Origin: Deltaproteobacteria bacterium
GTDB taxonomy: Bacteria > Desulfobacterota > Syntrophorhabdia > Syntrophorhabdales > Syntrophorhabdaceae
Direction: 5' to 3'
Assembly: GCA_022711595.1 (NCBI GenBank)
Contig: JAKLET010000001.1
Span: 124,001 to 188,000 of the forward strand
Length of the DNA stretch: 64,000 nucleotides
The translations under genes were made by a program, and so were the position numbers. A model generated the notes under the pieces. The model was not told the DNA's origin, did no database searches, and was given only the letters and a program-made list of their open reading frames with translations. Below are positions 34,295 through 54,872 of the stretch, piece after piece. The stretch's first letter is position 1; the number at the start of each line of letters is the position of its first letter.

Positions 34295-34756
34295 ATGTTA
34301 AAACCTACCAAGATCCTGGTACCCACCGATTTTTCAGGATATTCTGATGCCGCCCTGAAGCAAGCCGTCGATATCGCAGAAGAATACGGGGCCGAAGTTC
34401 ATGTTCTCCATGTGGTCGAGGTAAGGATCCACAGCATGTACGAATATGAGTTCGCCGGAAAGACCGCTTCCGCCGCAGGCATAAGGCGCCTTGAAAGCAA
34501 AATGGTCAAAACCGCGGAGACCAGGATGCAGGAATACCTGGCCAAACCGATTGCCGGGAAAAAAGTAAAGGTGATCCCAAGGGTTGTAAAGGGCAGCCCG
34601 ATCAAGGAGATATTGAAGTTCCAGAATGAGAACGGCATTGATCTCATCGTCATTTCGTCACTCGGTCACAGCGGCCTTGCCGAATACTTTATCGGCGGCG
34701 TGGCGCGCAATGTGCTGAAAGGTTCAACCTGCCCGGTCCTGTTGACAAAGGGCTGA
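34295..34756 (+). CDS. Universal stress protein (UspA family), copy 1
   Basis: 153 aa: KILVPTDFSGYSDAALKQAV at the start, VIPRVVKGSPIKEI in the middle, then LGHSGLAEYFIGGVARNVL with the family's ATP-binding Gly loop and CPVLL at the end. Cytoplasmic ATP-binding stress protein. GGAGG upstream. Confidence 0.9.
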   Translation: MLKPTKILVPTDFSGYSDAALKQAVDIAEEYGAEVHVLHVVEVRIHSMYEYEFAGKTASAAGIRRLESKMVKTAETRMQEYLAKPIAGKKVKVIPRVVKGSPIKEILKFQNENGIDLIVISSLGHSGLAEYFIGGVARNVLKGSTCPVLLTKG

Positions 34757-34825
34757 CGGGCAGCAAAGGGCCATGCCCAGGATGCGTGTTCCCGGCCATT
34801 GGACATAACGTTAAAGGAGGGAATT

Positions 34826-35272
34826 ATGTTGAAACCTACAAAGATCCTGGTGCCAACGGATTTTTCAGAGTATTCGGACAAGGCCCTGCAGCAGGGCATC
34901 GATATCGCAAGGCAATACAGGGCGCAGGTATACCTTGTCCATGTCACTCCGGGAGATTTTCACCGCGTTGTCGTCGATTACGCTATTCCTGAAGAAATGA
35001 TAGAGTCCATTGAGGCAAAACAACAGGCAATTGCAACGGAGAGCCTGAAAACACAGCTTGCCAAATTTGAAAAAGCAAGAGAGGTGGAGGTTTTCCCCAG
35101 GATAAGGAAGGGTATTGCCCATGAGGAGCTCCTCAGGGAAGAGAAGGAAAAAGGGATAGATCTCATTGTCATAGCTTCCCTCGGAAGGACTGGCCTTGCA
35201 AAATACCTCATCGGCAGCGTAGCGCGCAACGTTCTGAAAAACGCCGTATGCCCGGTGCTGTTGACGAAGTAA
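34826..35272 (+). CDS. Universal stress protein (UspA family), copy 2
   Basis: 148 aa from ATG 34826 (AAAGGAGG 5 nt upstream). Tandem paralogue of the previous gene (shared KPTKILVPTDFS-YSD and GLA-Y-IG-VARNVLK), 70 bp away. Likely cotranscribed. Confidence 0.9.
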   Translation: MLKPTKILVPTDFSEYSDKALQQGIDIARQYRAQVYLVHVTPGDFHRVVVDYAIPEEMIESIEAKQQAIATESLKTQLAKFEKAREVEVFPRIRKGIAHEELLREEKEKGIDLIVIASLGRTGLAKYLIGSVARNVLKNAVCPVLLTK

Positions 35273-48059: not shown

Positions 48060-49052
48060 TCACCCTCCATAGGCAACGTGCTTCAGGAGTTCCATGGCGC
48101 GGCGCGCCTGATCGACGGTGAGGCTTCCCAGACCGCAGCTGGTCGTGAAAAGTATGCTTTCCCTGTCCGGGGAGGTAACGCCCGCGATCTTTTCAATGAA
48201 GTGCGCGGCGCGGTCGCGCACGGTATCGGGGGTTTCCTCCATGACCTCGGGTGATGACGGCACAATGCCGGGGGCGATCCAGCCGCCCCTTTCGAGGAAG
48301 GTCTTCAGGTCATCGTTGTAATAAAAGACTGTGTCGAGATAGGCAAATGCATCATAATTGACGATGTCGATATCCGACTGGAAGGGTACGGACCAGTCCG
48401 TATTCCCGCACACATGTATGCCGCATCTCGCTGGCAAGTCTTCCAGCACCTCGTTGAGGGCACCGATGACCTCTTCCCGGGAGATGGATATGTACGCCGA
48501 TCCGAAAGAGACCATATACGGTTCGTCAAAGAAAATGATGATGTCTACGCCGGGATAGGCTTCCTGAATGGTCTTTATCATCCACTTCGCCTTCATGTTG
48601 AGGGCCTTCTTGATGATATCGTAAAAGGCAAAGTTGTAAATGACGGGTTTGTCCTTTTCATCCTTCAGGCCAAGCCCCATGCTGAAAGGGCCCGTGACCT
48701 GGCACTTGATGAACTGGAGGTCATCCCCGATCTCTCCGAGTCTTTCGAGAAAACGGTAAAAACCCGGTATGAACCGCTCGGAGATTGCAAAGGCGCCGGT
48801 GTTGCCGGCGGCAACGTTCTCGTAGAACTCCTCGATCCCTTCCGTTCTTTCCGTGTCTATGAATATAGAACCGGCCGCCTCATCGCTTACGATGGAGGGC
48901 ACACCTTCCAGGAAAGGGACATACATGTTCTCGAGGGGGGACCGTTTCGGCAATTGCGGCCAAAAGGGTATGCCCCTGCATGTTGAAAAAATGAGATCGA
49001 TCGCTTCATCAACCCTTGTAAAGGGAAAACTGCCGATGCCTGTTATCATCAT
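48060..49052 (-). CDS. MetE/UROD-fold zinc protein (cobalamin-independent methionine synthase-like)
   Basis: 331 aa from ATG 49052 with GAGG just upstream. The zinc site of MetE C-terminal domains is present: His-x-Cys in IHVCGN and Cys in TTSCGLGSL; TGPFSMGL and IIIFFDEPY match the fold. It lacks the N-terminal MetE domain, so it is a short corrinoid-protein- or methyl-acceptor-type transferase, not full MetE. Monocistronic. Confidence 0.75.
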   Translation of the reverse strand: MMITGIGSFPFTRVDEAIDLIFSTCRGIPFWPQLPKRSPLENMYVPFLEGVPSIVSDEAAGSIFIDTERTEGIEEFYENVAAGNTGAFAISERFIPGFYRFLERLGEIGDDLQFIKCQVTGPFSMGLGLKDEKDKPVIYNFAFYDIIKKALNMKAKWMIKTIQEAYPGVDIIIFFDEPYMVSFGSAYISISREEVIGALNEVLEDLPARCGIHVCGNTDWSVPFQSDIDIVNYDAFAYLDTVFYYNDDLKTFLERGGWIAPGIVPSSPEVMEETPDTVRDRAAHFIEKIAGVTSPDRESILFTTSCGLGSLTVDQARRAMELLKHVAYGG

Positions 49053-49223
49053 GGTCCTCTGAAATTGAACTGTAATATCAATATCTCCCGAAATTATTAG
49101 CATAGTTGGCCGTTGAAGTAAAGGCATATGAGGCTTTGCAGCCAATCGGGGAACTCATGTTGCAGACGGCTTGACGGCAGGCTATACTTCCCATATAGGG
49201 CACATCTAAAAAAGGAGGATATT

Positions 49224-49796
49224 ATGGGAGAGTCCATTGTATGGGAAAGTGACTTGAAAAAGGCCCTGGCCCGGGCAGGGGCGGAGAAAAGACCCGTTCT
49301 CCTCGATTTCTTCAACCCCGGTTGAATAGGCTGTCAACAGATGGATGCGGTCACGTATCCGACAGCCTCTGTTGTTGAGTTTATAAGCAAGAACGTCACA
49401 CCCCTCCGCATTCCGTCTGACTCAGAACCGCTGGCTACGGATTTCATGATCAAGTGGACACCGACCCTGATCATCCTCGACGAGAACGGCAGGGAACACT
49501 TCAGGACTGTGGGGTTCCTCACACCGGAGGAGTTCGTACCCTCAATAATGCTTGGCATAGCTAAATACCACTACGGGCTCGACCGGTTCCAGAGCGCCAT
49601 ACACTGCGTAGACGATGTCCTGAAGGATCATCCGAAGAGCTCCGCCGCTCCTGAAGCCGTGTTCCTGCGCGGCGTCCTCGGTTATAAAAGCGCCCACGAC
49701 GCAATGAGCCTGAAGAAGGCCTACGAAAGGCTTGCAGAGGAATACCCCGGGAGCGAATGGGCCAAAAAGGCCCTGCCGTACCGGTTGATACATTAG
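49224..49796 (+). CDS. Selenocysteine thioredoxin-fold protein with TPR-like C terminus
   Basis: 190 aa read through an in-frame UGA at 49323-49325 (Sec 34). ATG 49224 has AAGGAGG 6 nt upstream. The redox motif reads FFNPG-Sec-IGC, i.e. Sec-x-x-Cys in the position of the thioredoxin CxxC (VLLDFFNP before, cis-Pro region WTPTLIILDENG after). A helical TPR-like tail (ENDED by ALPYRL) follows. No signal peptide, so cytoplasmic. A Cys relative of this type is common in the group (family knowledge). Likely a thiol-disulfide reductant or peroxidase-like enzyme; its partner is unknown. Confidence 0.82.
49328..49368 (+). promoter_or_regulatory. SECIS-like hairpin after UGA of the thioredoxin gene
   Basis: AGGCTGTC (49328-49335) pairs perfectly with GACAGCCT (49361-49368); inside, GGATGC (49343-49348) pairs with GTATCC and exposes GGTCAC with the GGUC SelB-type loop, 23 nt after the UGA. 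Confidence 0.8.
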
Positions 49797-52801: not shown

Positions 52802-54706
52802 TCAGATCCCCATTTTTACCCTCTTCGTCTCTATGTGCGCCGCAATGCCGTCAACCGCCTTGATATGGTCCGTCTCCACGCTGAGTATGCCTCCTGTCAC
52901 CTGCGGCAGATCCTCGGTAAGCAGTTTCACAAGGTTCGGCCCGCCCGTTACGGTGGGAACAGGGTTTACATAGGTGTAAAGTCCAAGGGCGAGGGCAAAG
53001 ACGGCATCGACGGTCGCCTTTTGTTCCATGTATTCGGGCGCGACGGCGGCAACCGGGAGATCGGGAACGGGTACACCCGTGGCACCGGACACTGTGAGCA
53101 GAAAATCCGCCAGCCTTCCCGTATCGGTGCAGGTGCCGAAGCTCAACACGGGAGGCACACCCAGGAGATCGCAGACCTTTTTCAGGCCGGGGCCGGCAAG
53201 CTCCTTCGCCTCGCCGCTGCAGAGGCCCGCGACCTGCATTGCGCTGTTGCCGCACCCCATGGAGAGGACAAGGATGTCCCTTTTTATGAGCTCTTTCGCC
53301 ATGCGGACACTGTGGACATCCTGACCGCTGTCCCTGAGGCTCGTGCATGAAACAAGCCCGGCTATGCCGCGGATGCCGCCTGACTGAAGGGCTCCCAGAA
53401 GGGGTCCGAGGCTCCCTCCAAGCGCGTCGAGGATGCTCTCCGGGGAAAAACCCACGACGGCCTCGCTCACCGGCAGCCCGACAACGGGCTCAACTGCGCC
53501 GTGCCGCACCCTGAAATTATCGATCGCCATCTCCAGAAGCCGTGCCGCCTGCTCCCGGGCCTTCCGGGGGTCGTAATCCACCCGGTCGGTTATGCCCTCG
53601 AAGGCGACAAGCTGGCTCACGGGAATGAGTTTGAACTTGTATTTCTCGGCGTATTTGGGGTCGACAGGCATGGAGCAGTTCATGTCGCAGGCGAAAAGGT
53701 CCACGCAGCCGCTCGCGAGGACCGCCTCCTGCATGATCCAGTTTCCGGTGAAACCATAGAAAACGTCGTCCATCTCCCACCGCTGGATCATCTCCTGACC
53801 CGTTTCGATATTTGCTATTATCCGAAGTCCTTTTGCACCGGCCTGTTTCGCCCTTTCCTGCCACTCGGGTGACCGTGCAAGGCTGACCATGGCAAAACCC
53901 AAAAACGGCTCGTGCCCGTTGGGCAGCACGTTGACAAAATCGGGATCCAGGACGCCGAGGTCCACGCGCATCTTATGGGGCCGCGGTATCCCGAAAAGGA
54001 TGTCCTGGCAGTACTCGTTGACGATCTGGCTCTGGTAGGCCATGGCGATGCCGAGCCGCATGGCCTTGAGCGCCAGGCTGACGTAGTACCCGTCCACGTT
54101 GGTAAGACACGAACTGGTCGCAAACATCATCTCACCGTAAATACCTCCGGGGAAGATGCCCAGCCTTTTCCAGGCATCCTTGCGTTCCTTCGGCGCCAGC
54201 GTCTCAACGATATAGCTCGGTTCGTCGTACTTCCTGTTGAAGTCGGCCTCAAAATAATTGCACAGGGCAAGGGCAAGCTCATCGTCGTTGTCCACGATTG
54301 AAGGGATGTTAAAACGGTCCGCCAGTGCAACGAGCTTCGATGTCTCCTTGATCGAGAAAGGCGCTTCGCCGTTCGCCGCCGCCTTCAGTGTTTTAAGGGT
54401 CTGCTCCGTATGGTAGTGGTATGTCGACGCACCCAGCACATTTCTCAGAAGCATCATGCGCATGGCCATCCCGTCCCCGGTAATGCCGCAGACACCGCGC
54501 TTGTCCTTCGCGACATCTGCCCTACAGGGCCCGTTGGAACACAGGTCGCACCTGACACCCCCCTGGCAGAAGGGACAGCGCTGGTCGGGGCTCTGGCCCA
54601 GCCCCTGGGCCTCGTAGCGGTCCCAGATATTGGTCATGCCGTCCTTTTTGATGCGGTCATAAACCTTCCTGACCGATTCATGATAGGATATCCTGTCCTT
54701 TTCCAT
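52802..54706 (-). CDS. cooS: Anaerobic Ni-CO dehydrogenase, catalytic subunit CooS
   Basis: 634 aa from ATG 54706 with GGAGG upstream. B- and D-cluster Cys motifs CPFCQGGVRCDLCSNGPC and C-cluster context TSSCLTN, ACDMNCSMP, SCTSLRDSG, MGCGNS and GTCTDTGR. It oxidises CO to CO2 or the reverse. No cooC, cooF or acetyl-CoA synthase genes adjoin, so it is a stand-alone clade, possibly scavenging CO or sensing/disposing electrons. Confidence 0.93.
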   Translation of the reverse strand: MEKDRISYHESVRKVYDRIKKDGMTNIWDRYEAQGLGQSPDQRCPFCQGGVRCDLCSNGPCRADVAKDKRGVCGITGDGMAMRMMLLRNVLGASTYHYHTEQTLKTLKAAANGEAPFSIKETSKLVALADRFNIPSIVDNDDELALALCNYFEADFNRKYDEPSYIVETLAPKERKDAWKRLGIFPGGIYGEMMFATSSCLTNVDGYYVSLALKAMRLGIAMAYQSQIVNEYCQDILFGIPRPHKMRVDLGVLDPDFVNVLPNGHEPFLGFAMVSLARSPEWQERAKQAGAKGLRIIANIETGQEMIQRWEMDDVFYGFTGNWIMQEAVLASGCVDLFACDMNCSMPVDPKYAEKYKFKLIPVSQLVAFEGITDRVDYDPRKAREQAARLLEMAIDNFRVRHGAVEPVVGLPVSEAVVGFSPESILDALGGSLGPLLGALQSGGIRGIAGLVSCTSLRDSGQDVHSVRMAKELIKRDILVLSMGCGNSAMQVAGLCSGEAKELAGPGLKKVCDLLGVPPVLSFGTCTDTGRLADFLLTVSGATGVPVPDLPVAAVAPEYMEQKATVDAVFALALGLYTYVNPVPTVTGGPNLVKLLTEDLPQVTGGILSVETDHIKAVDGIAAHIETKRVKMGI

Positions 54707-54779
54707 ACGGCCGCCCTCCTCTTTTTTTCTCCTGATTTTGACATTGTAGGATAGGGCGGGAAAGATTGCAAGAGAAGGA

Positions 54780-54872
54780 GGGTTTTGGTTTCTCTGGTTT
54801 GTTCGGTTGTTTACCCAAAGAAACTGAAGAAGCAAGAGAAACGTTTTTTTGTTCTTTATTTGAAACTTAACA
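54780..54872. repeat. Nonamer-type run upstream of cooS
   Basis: TTTGGTTTCTCTGGTTTGTTCGG faces CCCAAAGAAACTGAAGAAGCAAGAGAAACG: 9-nt spaced TTTCTCTGG-type units with partial pairing, in a divergent spacer. Confidence 0.55.

Follow-up and report, generated by a model that had tools for sequence, protein, structure and literature searches.

A conserved thioredoxin-fold protein with an in-frame UGA and a TPR-like tail, very probably a selenoprotein, in a deltaproteobacterium and its relatives

A gene on the forward strand of the window (the whole 64,000-nucleotide stretch of DNA analysed), at 49224–49796, almost certainly encodes a selenoprotein; the UGA at codon 34 (49323–49325) would be read as selenocysteine (Sec), and a TAG stop (49794–49796) closes a product of 190 amino acids including Sec34. 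A preliminary description of the locus had noted two open frames in the same phase, parted by a single UGA where a CxxC redox motif is expected (FFNPG-UGA-IGC), and this is exactly the arrangement found. The ATG at 49224 lies 4 nt downstream of a Shine-Dalgarno sequence (aaggagga, 49212–49219, forward strand, identified from the sequence), which constitutes a strong ribosome-binding site; the start is preceded by a GGAGG-type site in most of the aligned relatives too. The active-site context, PVLLDFFNPG-U-IGC, corresponds to a strand of the thioredoxin fold and the loop that carries its active site, with Sec first in a UxxC motif and Cys37 (49332–49334, forward strand) as its resolving cysteine.

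The UGA codon and the selenocysteine machinery

A first homologue search, covering 60 genomes (the organism's own and those of relatives), yielded 22 full-length members, the window copy included, in each of which a single TGA lies in frame, and one more distant relative without an in-frame TGA. On alignment every TGA fell in the residue-34 column, where the distant relative carries a Cys codon; the 21 relatives other than this Cys form are 47–68% identical to the window protein, full length and with one in-frame TGA apiece. When 395 genomes of the phylum were searched with a profile, 85 proved to have the family, and retrieval of the regions from this phylum-wide search gave a family set of 92 distinct members. 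The residue-34 column of this set holds TGA (82 members), TGC for Cys (nine) or, in a divergent clade, GTG for Val (one), so that the Sec or Cys anticipated at this position in homologues was found with a single exception. No other in-frame TGA occurs in any of the 92, and Cys stands at +3 from Sec in all 82 Sec members. The protein is under purifying selection downstream of the UGA; with synonymous sites near saturation, pN/pS is 0.37 before the UGA, 0.28 in the rest of the thioredoxin domain and 0.31 in the tail. Viral contigs searched for the family gave no match, plasmids gave only partial matches of less than 30% identity (DsbD where annotated), and a contig scan with the single window protein gave one weak, unrelated match among the matches listed.

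The genome is equipped to insert Sec. The preliminary description held that a lack of selB or selC would speak against recoding; tRNA-Sec (73.7 bits, cut-off 47, with ARAGORN in agreement), SelB (380.6, cut-off 242), SelA (573, cut-off 268) and SelD (374, cut-off 125) are all present above curated cut-offs. The genome's SelD gene (L132, G000:C23:186546-187457) itself has one in-frame TGA, like known Sec-containing selenophosphate synthetases. In the 59 family-bearing genomes tested, tRNA-Sec was detected in 41 of 50 with the Sec form and in five of nine with non-Sec forms; the nine Sec-form genomes lacking a match were scored under a strict filter, and the assemblies are mostly fragmented. One genus, with Cys forms in three species, has a detectable tRNA-Sec in none of them.

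The SECIS hairpin

The preliminary description also proposed a two-stem structure 3' of the UGA. RNA folding of this region indeed gave both stems, an outer one of 8 bp (49328–49335 with 49361–49368, forward strand) and an inner one (49343–49349 with 49354–49360) that can be read as 7 bp around a GUCA loop or as 6 bp around GGUCAC; the folded region has a minimum free energy of -22.6 kcal/mol (z -2.6), and two of 200 shuffles fold equally well. When the same stretch was folded in relatives, the inner hairpin recurred and the outer stem did not. The outer stem, private to the window sequence and not conserved, was therefore rejected as part of the SECIS and is probably incidental. What is conserved is only the inner hairpin, a bacterial SECIS core at 49343–49360 (forward strand) with a stem of 6–7 bp and a GUCA or GGUCAC loop from 24 nt after the UGA.

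A published model of the bacterial SECIS (PMC13188914) specifies a loop of 3–9 nt with a G in its first two positions, a stem of 4–16 bp, a location 16–37 nt after the UGA and a folding energy of at most -7.5 kcal/mol. The window hairpin fits this model, with its GUCA loop at 24 nt, 8 bp including a closing U-G pair, and -10.5 kcal/mol. A perfect-stem search of the members was run under the same model and compared with synonymous-codon shuffles. Of the 82 Sec members, 78 have a best hairpin whose loop, with a G in its first two positions, starts 23–24 nt past the UGA. The Sec members average -8.1 kcal/mol, against -1.4 in the shuffles; the -7.5 kcal/mol limit is reached by 52 of 82, against 2.8% of shuffles, and the perfect-stem hairpins of the other 30 are weaker than this published limit. 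None of the ten non-Sec members has kept the hairpin, and none passes the limit.

Codon usage points to the same element. Synonymous choice is narrowest within the hairpin, with Thr44 encoded by ACG in 59 of 61 cases and Asp41 by GAT in 44 of 50, and most neighbouring codons look free. Codons 41 and 45 co-vary, GAT occurring with TAT in 43 members, GGT with TAC in 14 and GAT with TAC in none; where Asp41 (GAT) is replaced by Gly (GGT), 14 of 17 members also have TAC instead of TAT for Tyr45, which keeps the pair. A subgroup with MNTGPYSD in place of MDAVTYPD nevertheless retains a hairpin of 7 bp whose loop is GGUC. Both-sided changes are seen in five of seven pairs, compared with 2.2 in shuffles, and none of 500 shuffles reaches five. 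Sliding the register by two columns gives a higher covariation score and lower pairing, RNAalifold on the alignment calls three of the seven pairs, and Rfam searched over the window gives no match at gathering scores. The inner hairpin is the SECIS, and since the TGA and this RNA signal recur together over much of the phylum, the recoding signature is real, conserved and of a known kind.

Domain make-up and family history

The N-terminal part of the protein is a thioredoxin-fold domain (residues 5–106; 49236–49541, forward strand). Its best Pfam match is PF13098 (Thioredoxin_2; 44.4 bits, cut-off 27), followed by PF13899 (Thioredoxin_7; 36.4 bits, cut-off 27), both spanning the TGA, and by PF00085 (25.4, cut-off 23.5). 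Compared with PDB, the family profile matches DsbD gamma domains over residues 5–107 with E about 1e-10, making the gamma domain, the periplasmic C-terminal domain of DsbD, the closest thioredoxin subfamily by profile (cd02953 is presumably its entry); the window protein differs from it in being stand-alone, without membrane part or signal, in having Sec for the first Cys and in its TPR tail. The protein is apparently cytoplasmic, since its N-terminus has no signal-like sequence.

The TPR-like tail suggested in the preliminary description was supported. It is helical, of the YbgF/CpoB/BamD type, and occupies residues 111–184 (49554–49775, forward strand); the family profile matches the TPR of CpoB (6g5s) over residues 114–184 (E 3.5e-9), Pfam TPR_6 is found in 17 of 23 members, and NCBIfam BamD/YbgF models match all 23 below cut-off. 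In the window protein itself, residues 107–183 give weak Pfam TPR matches (TPR_16, 20.6 against a cut-off of 32.7), and a single-sequence AlphaFold model is all-helical after residue 101, at low confidence (pLDDT 55). The Pfam and profile matches together thus define the gene as a DsbD gamma-like thioredoxin domain joined to a short TPR. This fusion had been regarded as unusual; it is instead the standard architecture, about 190 amino acids long, of a phylum-wide family. No NCBIfam model reaches its cut-off with the protein, and model-based annotation pipelines may therefore cut such genes short or label them as pseudogenes.

Four changes are required to place the Sec, Cys and Val states on a tree of the 92 members, and Sec is the usual state of the family. 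One Cys form (L079) sits, with good support, inside the Sec group of one bacterial family, and another (L039 in G058) is on a long branch. A third clade, from a single bacterial family (L071–L078), is mostly CxxS, with one CxxC and one Val, and some of its genomes have no detected tRNA-Sec; this branch may be degenerate or re-purposed, its redox role possibly abandoned. The window copy stands apart from the same-genus copies L034 and L036, which fall in another well-supported clade, and this separation suggests loss, duplication or transfer of the gene. The genome carrying L085 (G343:C10) has a pair of Sec copies about 6.7 kb from each other and, elsewhere, a third that is shorter.

No gene neighbour or operon partner conserved over the family was found, so the assignment of function draws on the domains; about one third of members lie less than 100 nt from a same-strand neighbour. 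In the window, the divergent neighbour (48060–49145, reverse strand) resembles methionine synthase only weakly (PRK00957, 25 of 258 bits) and matches nothing in Pfam, and a homologue of it occurs in ten retrieved family loci, some of these being the window's own place. A prismane/CO dehydrogenase family gene (52802–54835, reverse strand) is also near the selenoprotein gene. Elsewhere in the window, two universal stress protein domains share one frame with a single TGA between them (34295–35269, forward strand); the arrangement resembles a tandem pair of Usp genes and not recoding.

Alternative readings and proposed role

An otherwise ordinary open reading frame with a single in-frame stop, in a gene that is patchy among relatives of its own genus, might be taken for a pseudogene in which a Cys or Trp codon has turned into TGA and the sequence beyond it is decaying. 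The same TGA, however, is present in 82 members from many families of the phylum with no second one in frame, and purifying selection still acts on the downstream half; we rejected this explanation as refuted by the conservation of the TGA, and its probability is negligible. The ATG at 49341, 15 nt past the UGA, would allow a leader of 33 residues, terminated by the UGA, and a separate protein of 151 amino acids. Such a split would sever the thioredoxin fold between strand 1 and the active site, the Cys homologues are continuous across the junction, and no Shine-Dalgarno-like sequence lies upstream of 49341, whereas one does upstream of 49224; on these grounds the two-gene arrangement was also discarded as extremely improbable. 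That the frame is open when the TGA is read through would equally suit insertion of some other amino acid, such as Trp through suppression or an altered code, but the non-Sec members align Cys and not Trp, TGA is the normal terminal stop in several members, and the genome has a tRNA-Sec and the gene a SECIS-like hairpin, leaving that reading, too, with a vanishingly small probability. The hidden Sec-x-x-Cys thioredoxin-fold selenoprotein of the preliminary description is supported by the TGA/Cys column, the Sec machinery and the inner hairpin.

Insertion of Sec in vivo is predicted here from sequence. At the codon-34 UGA the ribosome would be served by SelB-GTP-Sec-tRNA(Sec), with the SelB complex anchored on the hairpin, the stem of which starts 17 nt past the UGA; Sec would be inserted and translation would continue to the 190-residue, apparently cytoplasmic protein. 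Sec34 would act as the attacking and Cys37 as the resolving residue. Because these two residues make up the UxxC site of a DsbD gamma-like fold, a role as a fast thiol/selenol-disulfide reductase is the most likely one and is, in our judgement, quite probable. Client disulfides would be reduced at the UxxC site, with the TPR choosing the client; that the short C-terminal TPR docks a partner or client protein has about an even chance of being correct. A thioredoxin reductase would be the usual electron donor, and is the putative donor here.

The same recoding could serve a different, chaperedoxin-like job. The TPR would then hold clients that are unfolding, and their cysteines would be protected or reduced by the UxxC site. 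An N-terminal thioredoxin fold followed by a TPR domain is the order seen in the CnoX/YbbN chaperedoxins (PMC6282202), but the tail here is only about 75 residues long, matches the TPRs of YbgF and BamD and is shorter and of another type; the active site is UxxC, as against SxxC or WCxPC in CnoX/YbbN. E. coli CnoX (3QOU) is absent from the PDB profile matches at E 0.001, and no specific sequence relation to the thioredoxin or TPR domains of CnoX appears among them. We consider a CnoX-like function rather unlikely, and favour the reductase.

Since 2004, published listings have included UxxC selenoproteins with PF13098 as "thiol:disulfide interchange protein" (PMC13188914, Table 1; Kryukov and Gladyshev 2004; WP_011366075.1); three deltaproteobacterial cases come from Syntrophus and Geobacter species (PMC1794560), and the class has been placed at cd02953 (PMC2398784). 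The window protein resembles these in its PF13098 domain, its UxxC motif with Sec first and its occurrence in deltaproteobacteria; the published listings give domain and motif only and mention no C-terminal TPR tail. Compared by domain and motif alone, the window protein may belong to the family of WP_011366075.1. Other thioredoxin-fold selenoproteins (TsoB, VPGUxxT and Trx7/PDZ) are among the best NCBIfam matches by E-value, but they have other architectures, and scores are far under cut-offs (48 of 805 and 28 of 275 bits). A literature search found no selenoprotein listing with a TPR tail and, in the library searched, no paper joining selenoprotein, tetratricopeptide and thioredoxin. We raise only tentatively the possibility that these genes form an unlisted selenoprotein family, a cytoplasmic thioredoxin-TPR protein spread across a phylum of anaerobes and acting as a selenium-based, client-directed reductase or chaperedoxin in which Sec is usual and Cys a rare replacement.

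Many selenoprotein families are outnumbered by their Cys homologues, and it is therefore unusual that Sec predominates here, with 82 of 92 members using it across many families of a single phylum. With Sec, Cys and CxxS forms in one tree, the family is a good test case for what Sec gains a thioredoxin-fold reductase and for the route by which Sec is lost.
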